Assembly: GCA_000233775.1 (NCBI GenBank)
Contig: CP003096.1
Coordinates: 124,001 to 188,000, forward strand
Length of the DNA stretch: 64,000 nucleotides
Source of the DNA: Thermovirga lienii DSM 17291
GTDB lineage: Bacteria; Synergistota; Synergistia; Synergistales; Thermovirgaceae
Reading direction: 5' to 3'
Positions 2,764 to 54,481 of the stretch are shown piece by piece. The translations under genes and the position numbers were made by a program. Position 1 is the first letter of the stretch. Every line of letters begins with the position of its first letter. The notes under the pieces are model-generated. The model had not been told where the DNA came from, did not search any database, and saw nothing but the letters and a program-made list of their open reading frames with translations.

Positions 2764-3633
2764 TCAAAATTGCCTTCCACTGCTCATGAAACAGCCCTGC
2801 AACAAAAGGCAGAACAAATCAATGAGGGAAAGGTTGTCCTTTGGGATTATACCTTGCAACCTGGCAGTTTCAAAGGCTTCGTACAGGTCTTCCCAGCTGT
2901 TTAGATGAGCCTCTGCGAAGGAGGCGAGGTCTTCTTCCGAGGTGATACCTGCGTTTTTTAAAAAAGGTTCCAGCTTATTGATCCAGTCTTCTTTCACCTC
3001 ATATGAATTAGTTATGGCCAGGAGGTTTTCTTCTGCCAACTCTACCCACCGTTGTGTTATGCCGCTTGGTATGATGCTCAAGGCAGATTCTATGTCCTCC
3101 TTGGATAGCAAGGAGGAACTTGTGTGGTCTTCTTCTACATGTGGTGTTTCTTTAAGGCTAGCATCCACTTTTGCTTCTTGTTGTACGTAGGGTTTGTCAT
3201 TGAAGAAGTTCTCTATATGGCTTATTTGTTCTTTCATGACAGCAATGGATTCTTCATCTGATGGATTTGCCTCAGTAGATGCAATGAGCGAGCTCAACCC
3301 ATGGTGCAGTACGGTGTCCACAACAAAAACCATGGTCTTACCCTTAAGGTCTTGCCACTCAGGAAGGCCTTGGCGCTTTCTTTTGAGTTTTGCGGGTATC
3401 TTCAGGGGCCTTCCTTTGATATGTTCTTGTTGTCCCTTTTTAACGTCGAATTGTTCAATGATGAAATCCTTTGCCGTATCCATGTCTTTTGGGAGGTAAA
3501 GTATAATGTTCACAGCAAGTTCTTTTTCGTTTAAACTCTTGAAGTTTAAGGAGTAAATGGGGACCCCCCTAGCTGCAAGCCCTTTCTCAACAAGCTTTTG
3601 GATCATGAAAAAAGAGTCTTCATAACCTTTCAA
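2764..3633 (-). CDS. Uncharacterised protein in chemotaxis operon
   Basis: I do not recognise this 289-residue protein. It lacks a signal peptide and membrane segments. The N-terminal 125 residues look like a compact mixed alpha/beta domain ending in a hydrophobic strand (KTMVFVVDTVLHHGL). A polar, Ser/Glu-rich linker follows around residues 140-180, then a helical C-terminal domain. The TTG start at 3633 follows a GGGGG run at modest spacing; ATG at 3606 is an alternative. It lies between a chemoreceptor gene (25-bp gap) and cheB, so a signalling or motility role is likely by context only. Confidence 0.7.
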   Translation of the reverse strand: MKGYEDSFFMIQKLVEKGLAARGVPIYSLNFKSLNEKELAVNIILYLPKDMDTAKDFIIEQFDVKKGQQEHIKGRPLKIPAKLKRKRQGLPEWQDLKGKTMVFVVDTVLHHGLSSLIASTEANPSDEESIAVMKEQISHIENFFNDKPYVQQEAKVDASLKETPHVEEDHTSSSLLSKEDIESALSIIPSGITQRWVELAEENLLAITNSYEVKEDWINKLEPFLKNAGITSEEDLASFAEAHLNSWEDLYEAFETARLQGIIPKDNLSLIDLFCLLLQGCFMSSGRQF

Positions 3634-7826: not shown

Positions 7827-8309
7827 TTATTCTTTTTCGTCCTTGGGTCCTTTGGAGCATAGATGGCTTATGGCCATCAATGTAGTGAACCAGTAGGCCA
7901 TGAAGGACGCTATCAAAAGCTGAGTGGTCTTGCTTCTACCCTCGAGGTGCACCATCTTGTCCCTATAGTCTATGGGCCTTATGGTGCCCTTCTTGGGGTC
8001 ATAGAAGAACCGAATGGCAGGGTAGTATGTTTTTGTGCCGTTGTTGGAGGTCTTTTGCTGCCATATTTTCCATGCAGCGCCTGTGGGGTCTATACGTTCT
8101 ATGAAAACGTCTCCGACGCCGTACGTCTGGGGCACGATGAGCCGCCTGCTTTCGGCTTTTTCGATCATCGTTTGCAGCATGATGTCCAACGCAGGGAGGC
8201 GAAACTTGAGAGATGAATAGTCGGACGCATCAATGTACTTGCCGCTTGCGTCCACGAAAGCTGGCTCAGAAAGATTGTTTTCTTGCTCTGGCTTGTTGAT
8301 TTGACTCAA
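7827..8309 (-). CDS. Uncharacterised protein with C-terminal hydrophobic helix
   Basis: Not recognised. From the TTG at 8309, which has GGGGGTGA in front, the protein is 160 residues. It has a polar N-terminus, a central region rich in beta-type residues, and one hydrophobic helix near residues 133-152 (LLIASFMAYWFTTLMAISHL) followed by a charged tail. It could be tail-anchored. GTG at 8318 is an equally possible start; the frame remains open further but then overlaps the divergent gene at 8350. It converges on cheW with a 2-bp gap. Confidence 0.6.
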   Translation of the reverse strand: MSQINKPEQENNLSEPAFVDASGKYIDASDYSSLKFRLPALDIMLQTMIEKAESRRLIVPQTYGVGDVFIERIDPTGAAWKIWQQKTSNNGTKTYYPAIRFFYDPKKGTIRPIDYRDKMVHLEGRSKTTQLLIASFMAYWFTTLMAISHLCSKGPKDEKE

Positions 8310-8349
8310 TAAATTCACCCCCTGAATTTTAAGGAGGACGGCCAGGACT

Positions 8350-8880
8350 GTGTCACAAGAAAAAAGAAACAACAGACCTTCCTCAAAGAAAAAGGTTAAG
8401 AGTTCATCAGGAAGGAAACAAGGATACAAGATGGCCTCTTGGCAAAAGGAGATACAGAAAGCAGCGTGCCGAGAGAAGGACCTGGAGGGGTTCAATGCCT
8501 TTATGGAGGCTCTGGTGGACTTGCTTGGAAGGTTTCAAGGTGAGACCTTCATCATCAAGGGAGACAGCAGGGAATTTAATCTCTTTTGTTCTCCAATGGA
8601 CTTTCTCTTCGTTCTGCAGAAGGTGACAAAGAAGAGAGGGTATGCGGGAGCGTCCTCACTGATCTTTTTTGTAAACCAAAGTGTGCCGTCTATAAAATTA
8701 TGTTTAAAGGTGTATGATCTATATGATATGATAAAGTCAGAAAGAGCGATGCCTTTTGAGGAGGAAATCAAAGAAGGCTTTTTTCTTTCCCTCTTGGAGG
8801 CTTTAAGGGGCATTGAGGGTTCCTTTCCCGACAAGGAACTGCTGACGAAGGTTTTTCTCCGATCGTTGGGGAAGACTTAA
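8350..8880 (+). CDS. Uncharacterised basic protein
   Basis: Not recognised. The 176-residue product starts with a strongly basic, Ser/Lys-rich stretch of about 30 residues and continues as a mixed alpha/beta domain. It has no signal peptide or membrane helix. The GTG at 8350 is preceded by AAGGAGG at 8331-8337, a slightly long spacing of 12; no better start is seen. It runs divergently from the gene ending at 7827 and is followed by the HTH gene 26 bp on, so the two may be co-transcribed. Confidence 0.6.
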   Translation: MSQEKRNNRPSSKKKVKSSSGRKQGYKMASWQKEIQKAACREKDLEGFNAFMEALVDLLGRFQGETFIIKGDSREFNLFCSPMDFLFVLQKVTKKRGYAGASSLIFFVNQSVPSIKLCLKVYDLYDMIKSERAMPFEEEIKEGFFLSLLEALRGIEGSFPDKELLTKVFLRSLGKT

Positions 8881-8906: not shown

Positions 8907-9470
8907 TTGGGGATGTTGGCTATGATGGGGGTTAGAAAGGACGGAATGGGGCCTTTGGTCCCTGCGGATTACATAAAAAGGCTCAGGTTGAGCTTGGGGT
9001 TGACTCAGGCTCAGTTTGCGGTCCTTCTCGAGGTGGGCAACGTAACGGTATCTCACTGGGAGAAGGATGGCATGGATGGTGCCAGAAACTCAAGTTATGT
9101 CAACCTCAAAACTCTTGTAGGGTTACTGCGTCAGGCCATGGAGCATCCTGAGATGTTGAATCTCGAAAAGCTGTTGAAGTACTTGGATTTGGCGTCCCGG
9201 CACGAGTTGGTGGTTCACTATCTTCCCTTTGAAGATTTGGTTGCTCAGGAGTTATTGAGCGTCATCAACAGTGGGAGCGTGACGGGCGTAGTCGTTGCCC
9301 TGCTTCTGGACACAGAATTGGTTCGCCAAGGAAGGCCTACCCCTTATGAAAAGATTGTGTCTATAGAGGATAAAGGTCCAGCCCTAGGAGGCGGACTCCA
9401 GGAGGACGGCCTTTTGGACCAGATAGTGCGCCGCAGGAAAAATGACCTTGAAGATGCGGGTTCCTCCTAA
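8907..9470 (+). CDS. Helix-turn-helix (XRE-like) regulator
   Basis: This 187-residue protein has an XRE-type DNA-binding domain near residues 22-60: IKRLRLSLGLTQAQFAVLL, then NVTVSHWEKDG, the usual two helices and recognition residues. The remaining 120 residues form an acidic helical domain with no recognised ligand-binding fold. It may be a regulator of nearby motility or surface genes, but the target is unknown. The start is uncertain between 8907 (TTG) and the ATGs shortly after it. The end overlaps the converging gene 9467-9970 by 4 bp. Confidence 0.8.
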   Translation: MGMLAMMGVRKDGMGPLVPADYIKRLRLSLGLTQAQFAVLLEVGNVTVSHWEKDGMDGARNSSYVNLKTLVGLLRQAMEHPEMLNLEKLLKYLDLASRHELVVHYLPFEDLVAQELLSVINSGSVTGVVVALLLDTELVRQGRPTPYEKIVSIEDKGPALGGGLQEDGLLDQIVRRRKNDLEDAGSS

Positions 9471-9970
9471 ATTAAAGCACGCATTTCTTCCAAGCTTTTT
9501 GATATTAGATCTATGTTCACGGAGCCTGGTTGTTCCCCATCGGGAATGCTAGAACAAACCAGCTGAAGAGACCATAGGTCGTTTCCCTCATCGAAAGGTT
9601 CTTCTCCGTATTCCGTGTAGAGTTGGTTCAATCCCTCGTGTAGGCGTATGAAAATCTCTTCTAGATTCTTGCTGCATCCAGAGAGCTTTGCTTCATCCAA
9701 AAGGAGCGCAGCACGATTCAAAGAGGGGTTGTTTCCGAGGTACTTCAGCTTTTCATGGGGGAGGCTTTCTGCGACCAGCCTAATCAAGTGTCCCAGGCTG
9801 TGATGGTGCGGTGGTTTTATCTCTGGGGGGAAGATGCTTTCCCACAGAGATACAGCCTTTATGACCAAAGATGACACTTCTTCAACTCTGCGCAGGTAAT
9901 AAGGATTTCGACTGCAAATGATGGGGACTCTTATAGTTTTACCTATAGCGAAAAAATAATCTTTTTGCAC
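9467..9970 (-). CDS. Uncharacterised protein under c-di-GMP riboswitch
   Basis: This 167-residue protein is not recognised. It is cytoplasmic in appearance and mostly helical, with HHHSLGHLIRLVAESLP near residues 55-72 and two Cys. The GTG start at 9970 has AGGGGG eight bases upstream. A c-di-GMP-I riboswitch aptamer lies directly upstream on the same strand, and the AGGGGG can pair with a CCCCCT at about 10005-10010, so the second messenger probably gates its translation. Genes behind this aptamer class usually serve motility, attachment or surface structures. Its place between chemotaxis and flagellin genes agrees with this. Confidence 0.75.
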   Translation of the reverse strand: MQKDYFFAIGKTIRVPIICSRNPYYLRRVEEVSSLVIKAVSLWESIFPPEIKPPHHHSLGHLIRLVAESLPHEKLKYLGNNPSLNRAALLLDEAKLSGCSKNLEEIFIRLHEGLNQLYTEYGEEPFDEGNDLWSLQLVCSSIPDGEQPGSVNIDLISKSLEEMRALI

Positions 9971-10021
9971 TTTTATTCCCCCTAATCCGGGTTAAGAGCC
10001 AAGCAGGGGGCGGATTAGATC

Positions 10022-10112
10022 GCCGGCAGCCAGGCTGTCATAGCGCGAAATGTGCGCCTTAGACCCTGGGCTTTGCGCCGCAGGCTTTCGCCTGCTTTGC
10101 CCTTGTCAGCTT
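10022..10112 (-). ncRNA. Cyclic-di-GMP-I (GEMM) riboswitch
   Basis: Read on the minus strand the aptamer shows the class I hallmarks in order: GGGCAAAGC, a GCAGGCGAAAGCCTGC hairpin with the GAAA tetraloop, GCGCAAAGCC, GGGTCTAAGG, a CGC/GCG hairpin, then ATGACAGCCTGGCTGCCG, which carries the tetraloop receptor and the ligand-stacking region. Downstream, between 9975 and 10020, two alternative pairings are possible: CTAATCC with GGATTAG, and CCCCCT with AGGGGG. The second hides the ribosome-binding site of the next gene. The sense of control (on or off) cannot be told from sequence alone. Confidence 0.92.
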
Positions 10113-10173
10113 TCAGTTAGTAAACAATGTGTAAATGTGTGAAATAGTATATTCGGATTACAAGTGGCAGTCA

Positions 10174-10191
10174 ATAGAGCGAGGTAATTTG
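10174..10191. repeat. 18-bp target repeat, left copy
   Basis: ATAGAGCGAGGTAATTTG, identical to 13061-13078. The inner part GCGAGGTAATTTG also occurs at 11474-11486. The three copies are explained by two successive insertions. Confidence 0.8.
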
Positions 10192-11473
10192 TGTGTAGAT
10201 GAGCCTATATTTCGTTCCGTCTACTTTGGTAAAGTGAAAGAGATAATGGAAAAGGCGGGTACCTCTCCTTTATACTGGTGCTGCAACAACAACCAAAACA
10301 AAGGAAAAAGGAGGTAACCCGCCATGACTTCATTATACCAGCGACTAAAGGAATCAGGGAATCCCAAAGCCCCTATGGAAGTTATATGCGACTTGATAGA
10401 AAAAGGTAAAACAGCCAAAGAAATAGCTAACATCATGGGAATTACTGAAAGATGGGTTAGAACATTGATGAAACGGAAAAAAGATGGCCTATCTGCCAAA
10501 GAATTATTGCACAAAAAAGGTCCCAGATCCCCTCATCCAAAAAGAACTAAACCTCACATCGAAGCTTTGGTTATTGAAACTCAACAGAAAACCAACATGG
10601 GTCCTAGAAGACTTGCAAGAGAGCTGAAAAGAACCCTCAATCTGAATATATCTTCCTACACCATCAGAAACATCTTACGCAGAAACAACGTTAAAACTAA
10701 AAAAGTACGTTCTAGAAACGGAAATAAACGCTACTATGCCAACCTAAACCACTGGGAAGCCCTACAATACTTCCAGATCGATTCAAAACATATAGCAGAC
10801 GCAAAGACTCTCCCACCAAAAGCATATGCTGCCCTGTTTAAATACAGGCTTCCCAAATACCAATTTACCGCTATCGATATCAAAACAAGAATGAGAATCT
10901 TATGCTTCTCCGATGAATGCTCTTTCGCAAATGGCTTCTCCTTCATACTTTACATCGCCTTCCTCATGCGGGCTTTGGGCATCAGACATAGAATGTTCTT
11001 CCAAACTGACAACGGGAGCGAATTCGGCGGATCTGAAGAAAGCAGAAAAAGAAAAATATTGCAGGAAAAATTCCTAGAACCCTTAGGCGTTACTCTCCTC
11101 TCCATACCAAAAGGAGAAAAAGAAGCCCAAGGTTTTGTGGAACGAAGTCATCGCACCGATGATGAGGAATTCTACATACCTGCACTACCTCACATAACAT
11201 CCCGAAAGGTCTTTATGACTTCTGCCGCAAGCTGGGTAAAATATTACAATCAAAAACGATCTCATGGAGGCAGAGATATGAACGGGAAAACTCCAAAGGA
11301 AAAAATATTTGAACTCTCACTAGTCAGTTCTAAAGCCGCTACTTCCATACCCCCTATACTCTTGGACAAAGTAAACACCTTTATACTAAAAATGGTGGGA
11401 GCTCAAAACATCTCCTGGGACTCCCACCATCTCCTTCAACTAATTAAACGGAAGCAATTTGTGGCCCCTTACA
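10192..11473 (+). mobile_element. IS481-like insertion sequence
   Basis: The element of about 1.28 kb begins TGTGTAGATGAGCC and ends GGCCCCTTACA, giving TGT...ACA ends with an imperfect inverted repeat of roughly 25 bp (the shared GCC and TTCC blocks can be aligned). It is flanked by GCGAGGTAATTTG at 10179-10191 and 11474-11486 as target duplication; the ends are uncertain by up to four bases. The single transposase gene runs slightly past the right end. Confidence 0.7.
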
Positions 11474-11502
11474 GCGAGGTAATTTGTGTTACCGGACAGT
11501 GA
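10324..11502 (+). CDS. IS481-like DDE transposase
   Basis: This 392-residue transposase has an N-terminal helix-turn-helix (residues 12-52, TAKEIANIMGITERWVRTL), a second HTH-like basic region, and an integrase-core domain. The DDE residues are visible as Asp in FQIDSKH, Asp in FQTDNGSEFGG and Glu in GEKEAQGFVERSH. An AAGGAGG lies close before the ATG. The catalytic domain is intact. The reading frame leaves the element at about 11473, and its stop codon is supplied by the neighbouring insertion sequence, so the C-terminal ten or so residues are not native. Confidence 0.85.
   Translation: MTSLYQRLKESGNPKAPMEVICDLIEKGKTAKEIANIMGITERWVRTLMKRKKDGLSAKELLHKKGPRSPHPKRTKPHIEALVIETQQKTNMGPRRLARELKRTLNLNISSYTIRNILRRNNVKTKKVRSRNGNKRYYANLNHWEALQYFQIDSKHIADAKTLPPKAYAALFKYRLPKYQFTAIDIKTRMRILCFSDECSFANGFSFILYIAFLMRALGIRHRMFFQTDNGSEFGGSEESRKRKILQEKFLEPLGVTLLSIPKGEKEAQGFVERSHRTDDEEFYIPALPHITSRKVFMTSAASWVKYYNQKRSHGGRDMNGKTPKEKIFELSLVSSKAATSIPPILLDKVNTFILKMVGAQNISWDSHHLLQLIKRKQFVAPYSEVICVTGQ
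11474..11486. repeat. Target duplication between the two insertion sequences
   Basis: GCGAGGTAATTTG, a second copy of the inner part of the 18-bp repeat at 10174-10191. It is at once the right duplication of the IS481-like element and the remnant left duplication of the ISNCY-type element. Confidence 0.75.
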
Positions 11503-11539
11503 TATTGTCACCCTGTAAGGGGACAGAGAAAATGTCACC

Positions 11540-12898
11540 ATGAGTAGGGGTGACGTATATTTGAGCGAGAAGGAATCCAGGCGTGTATATGTTATGGAGC
11601 GGTTGATGGAGGGCGTTGTGACGGTGAAGGAGGCGTCGTGTGTATTAGGGTTGAGTGAGCGTCAAATAAAAAGGCTGAAGGCAGGGGTGAAGGAAAGAGG
11701 TATAGCAGCGTTGGCGCATGGTAACAGGGGAAGGAAGCCTAAACATGCTACGTCCAAAGAGGTAAAAGAGGCCATAGTAGGTTTTGCAGTGGGTAAATAC
11801 CATGGAGCCAGCTACCAACACATGTCGGAGCTAATGAAAGAGCACGATGGAATATTTGTGTCGGCCAAGACTGTAGGTCGAATTCTCAAGGAGGCATCAA
11901 TACCCAACAAGCACACTCACAAGACTCCGAGGAGGAGGCGTACTAGGAATCGAATGTCCATGGAGGGCATGTTGGTACAGTGTGATGCCAGTCCCCATGA
12001 TTGGCTTGAAGGAAGGTGCTCCAAGCTATGTCTTCATGGAGCCATAGATGACGCTACGGGGAAGATTTTTGGCCTTTATTTCAGGCCCAATGAAGATTTA
12101 TTGGGGTATCTGCATGTTTTGAAGCAGATGGTGGAAGATTACGGGGTTCCCAGGAGTATTTACAGTGACGGTCATTCTATATTCTTTTCTCCTAAAGGAG
12201 ACAAGCTCTCCATAGAGGAAGAGCTTAAAGGAGAAAGAGTTAAGCTTACTCAGTTTGGAGAGGTGTTAAATCAGCTGGGCATAACCCATATAAAGGCTCG
12301 TTCACCTCAAGCAAAGGGGCGTATAGAGCGTCTTTGGGAGACCCTGCAGAGTCGTTTGATCGTAGAGCTTAGGATAGCAAATATTTGCACCATGGAAGAT
12401 GCCAATGATTTTCTGTGTGATTTCAAAAAGAGGTTTAACAGCCGTTTCGCTGTAAGGGCAGAAGATAAAGAACAGGCATTCAGGGCAAACCCTGGATTAG
12501 AGTCTTTGCATAAAATCATATGCATAAGGAGTCACAGAAAAGCTTCAAATGGATCCACAATATCTTATGGGGGTAGTACTTATCAGCTGTTAGATTCTAA
12601 AGGGCACGTGGTACCTCTGAAGCCCAAAAGCCCTGTTTGTGTTACAAGGCATCTCGATGGTTCCCTTGGAGCTTTATACAGTGGCGATTACTTTAAACTA
12701 AAGGCTATCTCAAGTGACAGTAACAAGAAAGCTATCCAAGAAGAAAACCTAGAAAACAAGGCAAAGCCAAGGGGAAAATATAAACCATCCATGGATCACC
12801 CATGGCGTAGGAGTATAAACAGCACAACCAAAGATCATAAAAACAAGAAAAGGTATCCTCTGGAAGGTGAATTGGGGGGAATACATGCCCCATATTGA
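11540..12898 (+). CDS. ISNCY/ISDol1-like transposase
   Basis: This 452-residue transposase has an N-terminal HTH of the IS630/ISL3 sort (TVKEASCVLGLSERQIKRL, residues 26-44), a second winged-helix region, and an integrase core with Asp in VQCDASPHDW, Asp in IYSDGHSIF and Glu in KGRIERLWETL. The C-terminal 100 residues are a basic tail. The start codon lies directly at the end of the left subterminal repeat, so transposase binding could regulate its own gene. The frame is intact over the expected full length, so the element may be active. Confidence 0.85.
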   Translation: MSRGDVYLSEKESRRVYVMERLMEGVVTVKEASCVLGLSERQIKRLKAGVKERGIAALAHGNRGRKPKHATSKEVKEAIVGFAVGKYHGASYQHMSELMKEHDGIFVSAKTVGRILKEASIPNKHTHKTPRRRRTRNRMSMEGMLVQCDASPHDWLEGRCSKLCLHGAIDDATGKIFGLYFRPNEDLLGYLHVLKQMVEDYGVPRSIYSDGHSIFFSPKGDKLSIEEELKGERVKLTQFGEVLNQLGITHIKARSPQAKGRIERLWETLQSRLIVELRIANICTMEDANDFLCDFKKRFNSRFAVRAEDKEQAFRANPGLESLHKIICIRSHRKASNGSTISYGGSTYQLLDSKGHVVPLKPKSPVCVTRHLDGSLGALYSGDYFKLKAISSDSNKKAIQEENLENKAKPRGKYKPSMDHPWRRSINSTTKDHKNKKRYPLEGELGGIHAPY

Positions 12899-12932
12899 TA
12901 ACTACCACAAACTTACACAAACTTAAAAAACT

Positions 12933-12971
12933 AGCCCTGCCTTAAACTACAAAAAACACATTGGCAGGGCT
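12933..12971 (+). terminator. Hairpin after ISNCY transposase
   Basis: AGCCCTGCC (12933-12941) pairs with GGCAGGGCT (12963-12971) 35 bp after the transposase stop. There is no T-run, so it may be a weak terminator or a structure protecting the element from outside transcription. Confidence 0.45.
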
Positions 12972-13060
12972 AATATCTATGCCTAAACAATATCCAAAAG
13001 GGGACATTTTCACTGTCCCGTTAAAGACCTTTTAGGGTGACATTTTTACTGTCCGTTGAC

Positions 13061-13078
13061 ATAGAGCGAGGTAATTTG
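13061..13078. repeat. 18-bp target repeat, right copy
   Basis: ATAGAGCGAGGTAATTTG, identical to 10174-10191. It marks the right border of the insertion-sequence nest. Confidence 0.8.
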
Positions 13079-13107: not shown

Positions 13108-13139
13108 TAAAAGGGGCAGATATATTCTGCCCCTTTTTA
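13108..13139 (-). terminator. Rho-independent terminator of flagellin gene
   Basis: AAAAGGGGCAG and CTGCCCCTTTT form an 11-bp stem with a 7-base loop and T/A runs on both sides, 22 bp beyond the flagellin stop. It could also stop readthrough from the insertion-sequence nest. Confidence 0.85.
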
Positions 13140-13160: not shown

Positions 13161-15878
13161 TTATCTCAGAAGCTGGAGCACCTGCTGTGGCAGCTGGTTT
13201 GCCTGGCTCAGCATGGCGTTTGCGGCCTGCATGAGGATCTGGTTCTTGGTGAATTCGGTCATCTCTGCTGCCATGTCCACGTCCCTTATGCGGCTTTCTG
13301 CGGAGGTAAGGTTGGTGCTTGCCGTGGTCAGGTTGTTGATGGTGTGCTCCAAGCGGTTCTGGTAGGCACCAAGAGCAGCTCTCTGCTCTGATACCTGGTT
13401 CAAGGCGTTGTCTATTATGGTGATGGACCTTGCGGCGCTCTCTCTGTCGGTTACCAGAACTTTATCTACGCCCAAGGCTGCAGCCGACATGTTGCCCAGG
13501 TCTATGCTCATTTTCTCGCCCTCATTGGCTCCTATCTGGAAGACTGCGGAGTTGGAGGTAATATGCACGTTGGTCTCGAAGGACGAGGAATCGGCTATTA
13601 TGGACCAGCTCTTGGTGGTGCTGTTCCAGGATATGCTTGCGTTGGCCATCTTGTCGAACTCTACGTCCACGTTGGGGTCGATGACGCCCACCAAGGTGTT
13701 TCCGGTGAGTTCCACGTTGCTGGCCACCACTGCTCCAGTGTTGGAATCGGTTACGTCGACGGAGAAGCGGTTCTCCTGGCTTTCCTGGATCACGTTGAGG
13801 CCCAAGGCGGTGATTATGGAGTCGTCACCAACGAAGTTGAGTTCTCCGGCCTTGCCGGCCACTGCGCTGCTGAACACCAGGGTTCCGGCGATGGAGTAAG
13901 GAGAGTTCTCCGTGACCTCACCGGATGATATGAACTGCACGAAATTGTTGGCATCAGCGGATGAGACGTAGTCTTTCTGCCCCAAGGTCTCTGCGATGGC
14001 CTGATTGAACTTGGTGGCCGCCTGTTCCAAGGTGTCGTCGGCATATAGGGTTACTGTGGCCTTCTTGCCGTCGCCCTGGATGATGGTTATGGTCTGAGGA
14101 TCCTCGAGGAGGTTTACGCCGCCTGTTCCCTGGAACTGGGCCAGGTCCTTGAGCTTGGTGTTGCCCGTTGCCACGGTCCCCTCGGGGAGGCCGCTTGCTA
14201 CGGTGAACTGGAACGCAGGGGACTCGTCCACCAGGTAGGTGTCGAAGTCCATCTGGATGGCGCCGTCGTAGAGGACGTTGTTGCTGTCCACCTGGTACAT
14301 GTAGAAGTTCTTGTCGGAAGCGCCATCAAGGGCACCCGCGGAGAAGTTGAAGTAGTAATTGTTGGTTCCGTCGGTTATCTTGACTACATCGCCGTTTGCC
14401 GCGCTGGCATCCCACACGGTCAAAGCAGCCTTGTCTCCCACCGAAGCGGTGTTGATGTCGAAGGTCGTATCACCTAAAGTTACTCCGGCGATGACGTCAC
14501 CAGCGCCCTCAAAGCCTGTTCCGTCGGCCGCAACGCCTGTTAGGTTGACCGAGCCGCTCGTCCAAGTGCCATTTCCATCCATTGCTCGATACTCTACGGC
14601 TAGGTCAAGGGTGTTGGCGTCGCTGTCCTTGCCGGTCACTTCTATTGACATGGTGATGTAGCTGTAGCCTCCAAAGACAGTAGCCGTGGCAGTGGAGGTT
14701 ATAAACCCGTTCGGGTCGCTGAGGTTGTACCCTGCAGTCACATCGCCAGCGTTAACGTTGTTGGAGGTTATGACGCTGTAAGTTCCGCCGGCCATCTGGT
14801 TTCCGTCCACGGTGTCGATGTTTGTGATGTTTTGAGATGCCTTCGAAACCGAGAAGCTGTTTGCAACCGTGGCGAAATCATCGGCTCCACCTGCACTGGT
14901 GTCGGTGGTAGCTGACAAACTTCCTGACTGAATTATGGCATTCGCTGCAGCATCTTCTAAGACTAACTCGGACTGCCCAGCACCACCACCTTCATTTAGG
15001 GTTGTGGTGAATGAGAAGTCGGTTCCCGCCTCTTTTGCAGTGATGGTAATAGCGGTGTCATCTACGCTCACGGTGAAGTACTTGTTGAAGTCATCGTTGG
15101 CCTCCAAGCCGGCCTTGATCTGGTCAGCCTGGGCGGCTGCATCAGCACCTGTTAGTGCAATGCCGCTAACCGAGAAGGTGTTTCCGTTTATTGTGAAGCT
15201 AAAGTCCAAAGAGTCATTTTCTGCACCGGTTGCTGCGGTTCCAACTACTAGCTGTGCTGCGGCCTTGCGGCCCTCTCCTGCGGTCTGGCTCTCTATTTCG
15301 CCGCCGGAACCGCTTCCCAGGGTGAAGACGTTGGATGCCTGAACCTGTGCGGTTCCTGCCTGGAGAAGGTCAACGGAGATCTTGTAGTTGCCCTCGTTCG
15401 TGACCGTGCCACGGGCATAAACCTTGGTCGTGGACTTGTCAGTGGATACTATCGCGGAGGCAGTTCCATCCAACAGCTTTTTGGTGTTGAACGTGGTGGT
15501 GTCGGAGATCCTGTCTAGCTCCTGGGTGAGCTGGTCTATCTCCGACTGAATCGCCTGGCGGTCGTTGGCCGTCAATGTGTCGTTGGCCGCCTGAACGGAG
15601 AGCTCCCTCATCCTCTGGAGAATGGACTGGGTCTCGTTCAGGGCGCCTTCTGCCGTTTGGATCAGGGAGATGCCGTCCTGGGAGTTGCTGACCGCCTTGT
15701 CCAAACCTGCGGTCTGGGCCCTCATCTTCTCCGATATGGCAAGTCCTGCGGCGTCGTCTGCGGCGCTGTTGATCCTAAGACCAGTGGACAACCTGGTGAG
15801 GGACCTGGAAAGGGCGTGTTCGTTGGTCCTCAGACTGTTCTGAGTCACCATTGAGTTGATGTTGTGATAGATACGCAT
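13161..15878 (-). CDS. hag: Flagellin with very large central domain
   Basis: This flagellin has 905 residues against the common 270-500. The conserved N-terminal D0/D1 part (INSMVTQNSLRTNEHALSR through LAISEKMRAQ) and C-terminal part (ESRIRDVDMAAEMTEFTKNQ to QVLQLLR) are intact. About 600 intervening residues are beta-rich, Gly/Thr/Asn/Asp-rich sequence that would form the outward-facing D2/D3 domains. The start at 15878 has AAGGAGG; the frame is open a further 90 codons upstream but these lie in the leader. Cys is absent from the parts read. The leader carries a CsrA-type hairpin, and csrA and fliW are the next genes upstream, as expected for feedback control of flagellin. Confidence 0.95.
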   Translation of the reverse strand: MRIYHNINSMVTQNSLRTNEHALSRSLTRLSTGLRINSAADDAAGLAISEKMRAQTAGLDKAVSNSQDGISLIQTAEGALNETQSILQRMRELSVQAANDTLTANDRQAIQSEIDQLTQELDRISDTTTFNTKKLLDGTASAIVSTDKSTTKVYARGTVTNEGNYKISVDLLQAGTAQVQASNVFTLGSGSGGEIESQTAGEGRKAAAQLVVGTAATGAENDSLDFSFTINGNTFSVSGIALTGADAAAQADQIKAGLEANDDFNKYFTVSVDDTAITITAKEAGTDFSFTTTLNEGGGAGQSELVLEDAAANAIIQSGSLSATTDTSAGGADDFATVANSFSVSKASQNITNIDTVDGNQMAGGTYSVITSNNVNAGDVTAGYNLSDPNGFITSTATATVFGGYSYITMSIEVTGKDSDANTLDLAVEYRAMDGNGTWTSGSVNLTGVAADGTGFEGAGDVIAGVTLGDTTFDINTASVGDKAALTVWDASAANGDVVKITDGTNNYYFNFSAGALDGASDKNFYMYQVDSNNVLYDGAIQMDFDTYLVDESPAFQFTVASGLPEGTVATGNTKLKDLAQFQGTGGVNLLEDPQTITIIQGDGKKATVTLYADDTLEQAATKFNQAIAETLGQKDYVSSADANNFVQFISSGEVTENSPYSIAGTLVFSSAVAGKAGELNFVGDDSIITALGLNVIQESQENRFSVDVTDSNTGAVVASNVELTGNTLVGVIDPNVDVEFDKMANASISWNSTTKSWSIIADSSSFETNVHITSNSAVFQIGANEGEKMSIDLGNMSAAALGVDKVLVTDRESAARSITIIDNALNQVSEQRAALGAYQNRLEHTINNLTTASTNLTSAESRIRDVDMAAEMTEFTKNQILMQAANAMLSQANQLPQQVLQLLR

Positions 15879-15904
15879 GCTACTCAAACCTCCTTGTTTT
15901 GTTG

Positions 15905-15924
15905 ATTTTCCATCCTTGGAAAAT
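15905..15924 (-). promoter_or_regulatory. CsrA-binding hairpin in flagellin leader
   Basis: On the minus strand ATTTTCC pairs with GGAAAAT around the six-base loop AAGGAT, which exposes a GGA as in high-affinity CsrA sites. A second GGA lies in the AAGGAGG ribosome-binding site 20 bases on. A separate GTCCCC/GGGGAC hairpin at 15925-15939 flanks it. The arrangement matches the two-site flagellin leader known from Bacillus subtilis. Confidence 0.7.
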
Positions 15925-16068
15925 GTCCCCTGCGGGGACTCTGACAAAAGCTGCCGGCCTGCTTTTGCCTCTCTATTGAAAATATAAGAGAGATAGTTTC
16001 GCCAAACAACCAACAAAGGATTTTTTTCGAAGGCCAGCTCAAGCTCTTCGCCGTAATCCCCAATATAT

Positions 16069-16095
16069 GTTTCGGCACTTTGAGGGTTATTTTCA
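16069..16095 (-). promoter_or_regulatory. Sigma-28 type promoter of flagellin gene
   Basis: On the minus strand TGAA, 15 bp and GCCGAAAC. The -10 octamer is identical to the one at 18209-18216 and the spacing is the same. Transcription from here would give a leader of about 180 nt that includes the CsrA hairpin. Confidence 0.6.
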
Positions 16096-16119
16096 ATATT
16101 TTCTATAGGAAAAAGTCCT

Positions 16120-16407
16120 TCAATTTGTTGAGGAGCTCCCATCCTCATCTTGCCCCTTCTTTTCCTGTCTTGGGCGGTTTCTCAAAAGGGTCTCTAAGAC
16201 GTCCAAGTTCTCTTTTGCGGCTTCGGCCGCCGCTTTGTTGGCCTCTGTGACCTCTGCTAGGATTTCCTTTCTCCATATATTTACGCTTTTTGGGGCTTTT
16301 ATCCCCAGTCGGACGAAGTTGTTGCCCACTTCGATTATTCTTATCTCTATGCCCCCTCCAGCATCTATAACGATGCTCTCGTCCTTGCGTCTGGTCAAAA
16401 CGAGCAT
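16120..16407 (-). CDS. csrA: Translational regulator CsrA
   Basis: CsrA (95 residues) is a dimeric RNA-binding protein that blocks translation of GGA-containing leaders. The conserved core is present: MLVLTRRKDESIVI, then EIRIIEVGNNFVRLGIKAP and the helix start. It is longer than the 61-residue enterobacterial form, with a charged, Ala/Glu/Lys-rich C-terminal extension of about 30 residues. The ATG at 16407 overlaps the fliW stop (TGATG), so the two are coupled. The likely target is the adjacent flagellin mRNA, whose leader contains a matching hairpin; FliW relieves the repression when flagellin is exported. Confidence 0.96.
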   Translation of the reverse strand: MLVLTRRKDESIVIDAGGGIEIRIIEVGNNFVRLGIKAPKSVNIWRKEILAEVTEANKAAAEAAKENLDVLETLLRNRPRQEKKGQDEDGSSSTN

Positions 16408-33457: not shown

Positions 33458-33479
33458 TACTAAAAACAGCGAAGATAAA

Positions 33480-33650
33480 CCAGTAAGGTGCCCGTAAGGG
33501 AGAATAGGGAAGTCCGGTGAGAATCCGGCGCGGTCCCGCCACTGTGACGGGGACTTTGGTTGAGAGATGCCACTGTTGCCTTAGTGCGATGGGAAGGTTC
33601 AGCCAAGGGATGATCCAAAGCCAGGAGACCTGCCTTTCTGGAGTTAGTAG
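33480..33650 (+). ncRNA. Cobalamin riboswitch
   Basis: The conserved parts of the B12 aptamer occur in order: AAGGTGCCCGTAAGGG, AATAGGGAA, the CCGGTGAGAATCCGG hairpin, GCGCGGTCCCGCCACTG (the L5 core box), and near the end AGCCAGGAGACCTGCC. It is read on the plus strand towards cobT. Adenosylcobalamin is the usual ligand of this form. A terminator hairpin follows at 33671, so control is by premature termination. Confidence 0.96.
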
Positions 33651-33670
33651 GTTGGGATGATGGTAAAGTC

Positions 33671-54380: not shown

Positions 54381-54481
54381 CTCTTATCAAGAGAGGCGGA
54401 GGGACTGGCCCGATGATGCCCGGCAACCTGCCTTTTACAGGCGTGGTGCCAATACCTGCAGCTTAGGCTGGGTGATAAGAG
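54381..54481 (+). ncRNA. SAM-I riboswitch (S box)
   Basis: CTCTTATCA and TGATAAGAG form the closing P1 helix. Inside are AGAGAGGCGGAGGGACTGGCCCGATGA, the GCCCGGCAACC pseudoknot region and GGTGCCAATACC, all diagnostic and in order. It controls the downstream methionine genes. Confidence 0.97.

Follow-up and report, generated by a model that had tools for sequence, protein, structure and literature searches.

A c-di-GMP-I riboswitch aptamer precedes a lineage-restricted orphan gene behind flagellin in Thermovirga lienii and two relatives

A gene for a 167-aa orphan protein in Thermovirga lienii DSM 17291 is preceded by a c-di-GMP-I riboswitch aptamer, and the gene, its place behind flagellin and its association with the riboswitch are all conserved in two other members of the phylum Synergistota. 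The window analysed here is a 64,000-nucleotide stretch of contig CP003096.1 (positions 124,001 to 188,000), and coordinates are positions within it unless stated otherwise. From this arrangement we infer, with a probability of about 0.5 for the model as a whole, that the aptamer is transcribed from its own promoter and would respond to c-di-GMP as an OFF switch on the translation of a small protein that aids flagella or chemotaxis in motile cells. The features of the locus are as follows.

8907 to 9470, plus strand: XRE/MqsA-like HTH protein, a convergent conserved neighbour overlapping the orphan gene by 4 nt (Pfam HTH_3, synteny)
9467 to 9970, minus strand: 167-aa orphan protein with a GTG start, predicted to be riboswitch-controlled (ORF, homologues, model)
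9971 to 10021, minus strand: expression platform with anti-SD CCCCCT, SD AGGGGG (9983-9978) and the alternative helix CTAATCCG/CGGATTAG (sequence, complementarity, folding)
10022 to 10111, minus strand: c-di-GMP-I riboswitch aptamer (RF01051; full-length cmscan match)
10146 to 10174, minus strand: likely sigma-70 promoter TTGACT-17-TATACT, 5' of the aptamer (consensus scan, 10/12 matches)
10191 to 13060, plus strand: two-transposase IS unit (2.87 kb) between the flagellin terminator and the riboswitch promoter (genomic copies, direct repeats)
13109 to 13137, minus strand: flagellin intrinsic terminator (12-bp stem and T tract)
13161 to 16148, minus strand: flagellin, which ancestrally lay next upstream of the riboswitch gene (Flagellin_N and Flagellin_C)

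The aptamer was identified using cmscan, which matched positions 1-87 of the RF01051 model to 10111-10022(-) with 81.3 bits, far above the gathering score of 35 (E 2e-14 for the window). An earlier sequence-only reading of this DNA had named a class I c-di-GMP aptamer, proposed the Rfam check and placed a 167-residue protein directly downstream, all of which was borne out, the protein being the GTG-start ORF at 9970-9467(-). The aptamer is a textbook member of the c-di-GMP-I class (GEMM-I), as it keeps the GAAA tetraloop, CGCAAA, CUAA, AUGACAGCC, UGCC and the 5' leader location, and no structural difference from the class was seen; the gene that it controls is unnamed. It is separated from the GTG start codon by 51 nt, with an anti-SD/SD pairing in between. 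The promoter scan returned three sites in the region where 1.1 were expected, and the promoter call is therefore weak when taken alone. With 11 GGDEF domains and one PilZ domain encoded in its genome, the organism is expected to use c-di-GMP signalling. The aptamer is predicted to bind c-di-GMP and to alter expression in response.

Homologues of the orphan protein were present in 3 of the 188 phylum genomes: that of the window and two metagenome-assembled genomes, one from its own genus (31% identity) and one from a different family of its order (25%), a small set (n=3). Searches of genome contigs, viral contigs and plasmids gave no homologues besides these two relatives. In each relative the gene is preceded by a c-di-GMP-I aptamer of its own (78.4 and 79.4 bits against RF01051), and in all three genomes it lies behind flagellin, shares the orientation of flagellin and is convergent to the same HTH gene. 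Because the two homologues keep both an aptamer of their own and the same slot, the 167-aa ORF is not a product of chance. The surrounding cluster of CheB, MCP, sigma factor, CheW and FliW-CsrA-flagellin is common to the three genomes, and hence to two families, as far as contig ends permit. Two further uncharacterised proteins (8350-8880 and 7827-8495) are likewise conserved in this cluster across the three genomes and had no Pfam match at the family cut-off.

The flagellins of the three genomes are 66-90% identical. Between the window and its same-genus relative, identity is 90% for flagellin, 76% for CheW and 65% for the HTH protein, and the riboswitch gene, at 35% over its best part, is the minimum of the cluster, the next lowest being two ORFs at 39%. 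The gene is thus the fastest-evolving of the cluster, and the protein drifts quickly although its riboswitch control and its slot have been retained. Conserved riboswitch control is among the few firm indications of what an unknown protein does, and here it links a rapidly diverging, unnamed protein with c-di-GMP and the flagellin locus. The link to motility drawn by the sequence-only reading is strengthened by this synteny and shared control in three genomes.

In the other flagellated genomes of the phylum that were checked, no c-di-GMP aptamer was found behind flagellin, and the idea that a diverged homologue follows flagellin there was rejected on this ground; in one of them (G018) the post-flagellin gene is a different ORF, of 168 aa. 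Other flagellated Synergistota lack the gene, which therefore does not belong to the core flagellar machinery. Its rarity in the phylum, together with the low identity of the homologues, the IS elements inserted beside it and the lack of a family or fold match, would suit a lineage-specific accessory gene with no part in motility, either a general c-di-GMP output or the remnant of a mobile cassette, lodged after flagellin by chance. We consider this quite unlikely, because slot, orientation, riboswitch and neighbours are alike in three genomes of two families, which would not be expected of a passenger.

The 167-aa ORF had no Pfam or NCBIfam family match even at a permissive E-value, the three-member family had no PHROG match, and a PDB sequence search with the family profile returned chance matches only. 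Two homologues were modelled with AlphaFold2, and both models show a beta hairpin, then some five helices and a tail of low confidence; their quality is moderate (pLDDT 74.1 and 76.9, from three-sequence alignments), so that a fold match could be missed. Fold searches with these two models against the PDB and viral structures gave none at E <= 0.001. The absence of a recognised family, as originally described, was thus upheld by the HMM and structure searches that had been suggested for the product. This is an orphan, lineage-restricted protein family behind a known riboswitch class, and it is best explained as a small cytosolic protein, with a function that may be read from gene position and riboswitch control only. 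Its N-terminal GK(S/T)xRIP motif followed by a helix, and the predicted E-E-H topology, resemble ZapA, and a ZapA-like protein that has diverged, keeping the beta hairpin and long helix, would tie c-di-GMP to cell division. That homology was rejected, and we hold the reading to be very improbable: the Pfam ZapA model (PF05164) did not match the ORF, profile-profile comparison with the phylum's own ZapA gave a probability of 0.2%, ZapA was not among the PDB fold matches shown, and genuine ZapA genes lie elsewhere in all three genomes.

A terminator ends the flagellin gene in both the window and the Thermovirga relative, which makes the riboswitch gene a separate unit; shared transcription from flagellin is disfavoured on the same evidence. 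In the window the two genes are also separated by the IS unit. An exact 17-bp direct repeat, AAATTACCTCGCTCTAT, occurs at 10174-10190 and 13061-13077, within the window only at the edges of the IS, and does not occur where the other full IS copy lies; we interpret it as a target-site duplication. The flagellin terminator remains on one side of the insertion and the likely promoter (10174-10146) on the other, and the relatives have the uninterrupted flagellin-riboswitch arrangement. A near-complete copy of the unit, 98% identical, is located at G000:C1:741643-744516, many part copies occur elsewhere in the genome, and the first transposase element has about a dozen copies that are 99-100% identical. 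This near-identity indicates that the element moved recently, and its insertion may have changed expression of the orphan gene in this strain. The location between chemotaxis and flagellin genes given by the sequence-only reading was correct as to the neighbourhood, but the IS at 10191-13060, between riboswitch and flagellin, had gone unmentioned.

Both pairings that had been named in the leader do exist. The window platform folded alone forms the CCCCCT/AGGGGG helix, and the alternative helix CTAATCCG/CGGATTAG has 8 perfect pairs, matched by 1.0% of shuffled leaders; complementarity and folding together support the suggested sequestration of the SD. In the same-genus relative the SD is GAGGAGG, with a perfect complement, CCTCCTC, upstream (7 pairs, reached by 1.7% of shuffles). 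The SDs of the two Thermovirga leaders thus differ, yet each has a perfect upstream anti-SD. In the best unliganded fold of the relative's leader the anti-SD is base-paired to the 3' portion of the aptamer (CUGC.GGGGA with UCCUC.GCAG), and closure of the aptamer would therefore free the anti-SD onto the SD; in the unliganded fold of the window leader it is the 5' flank of the aptamer (AGCUGA...) that pairs with the platform. Holding the aptamer folded raised the cost of opening the SD by 2.75 kcal/mol in the relative, reached by 2% of shuffled platforms, and by 2.0 kcal/mol in the window, where 15% of shuffled platforms do the same and the SD is partly paired in the bound and the unbound fold alike. 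The energy model takes no account of tertiary structure or of folding during transcription, and a constraint was used to enforce the bound state. Folding therefore favours c-di-GMP acting as an OFF signal on translation, clearly in the relative and weakly in the window. The third homologue has a different leader, in which an anti-SD role was rejected as the longest complement is only 4 nt. About 115 nt 5' of its start codon, sequence and folding show a terminator-like hairpin, ACACCTT...AAGGTGT, followed by a T tract, which looks like transcription control; a terminator scan with a loop limit of 8 did not report this hairpin.

We propose that in motile cells, at low c-di-GMP, part of the aptamer region would hold the anti-SD and the protein would be translated, and that a rise in c-di-GMP would close the aptamer, freeing the anti-SD to pair with the SD and stopping translation. 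With an OFF sign the protein would be made in motile cells, which fits its place behind flagellin, and it would most likely serve flagellar assembly or function, or chemotaxis. It had been suggested that the gene is a new effector of the motile-to-sessile switch; neither fold nor family gives such a function, and the probable OFF sign computed here points to a protein of motile cells rather than an attachment factor. Motility brakes are a typical c-di-GMP output, and this, the location in the flagellin locus and the indecisive energy models of the window leader would all be compatible with an ON switch, in which c-di-GMP raises the level of a protein that halts swimming as a brake, an anchor or an attachment factor. 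We regard that sign as unlikely, though deserving some weight, since opening of the SD becomes more costly in both Thermovirga leaders once the aptamer is enforced (significantly so in one), and since C. difficile class I switches are reported to work as OFF switches (PMC11477304).

The C. difficile riboswitch Cdi1_3, upstream of the flgB flagellar operon (PMC3649979), resembles the window element in that a c-di-GMP-I aptamer is tied to flagellar genes, with the OFF sign proposed here. Cdi1_3 acts by transcription termination on a large, early flagellar operon, whereas in Thermovirga a single small post-flagellin gene follows an apparent SD-sequestering platform. Class I riboswitches of C. difficile also precede small proteins that lack conserved domains (PMC11477304): both pair an aptamer with a small protein of unknown function, but the C. 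difficile proteins are of 58 aa and the Thermovirga protein is of 167 aa with a conserved flagellar location. Literature searches found no study of c-di-GMP riboswitch function for the phylum Synergistota. More tentatively, and with the odds somewhat against it, the orphan gene may found a new Synergistota family of riboswitch-controlled flagellar accessory proteins beside fliW-csrA-flagellin, in which control is kept while its mechanism shifts between RBS occlusion and transcription termination. If confirmed, the system would represent a new type of output for c-di-GMP control of swimming and an example of an expression platform being swapped with regulation retained.

Genome-wide, T. lienii has three c-di-GMP-I aptamers, the one described here and a tandem pair at G000:C1:1716907-1717196 (2908-3197 of locus L004), which precedes an AAT/linear amide hydrolase-like (AAT/CBAH-like) gene. 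The same tandem, ahead of a similar gene, was seen again in a second family (L049, L052, L055). At L063 and L065 (genomes G003 and G002, two relatives) a c-di-GMP-I aptamer lies within an apparent type IV pilus-type operon, before a PilC-like and then a pilin-like gene, both named by eye. Genomes G026 and G017 have 14 and 18 c-di-GMP-I matches, and at three of their loci (L068, L078, L079) several aptamers precede large predicted exported proteins with a sorting-like tail (GGGCNxG...hydrophobic...R). The window itself also contains a cobalamin riboswitch at 33469-33651 (+), with 110.8 bits, and a SAM riboswitch at 54381-54481 (+), with 94.7 bits.
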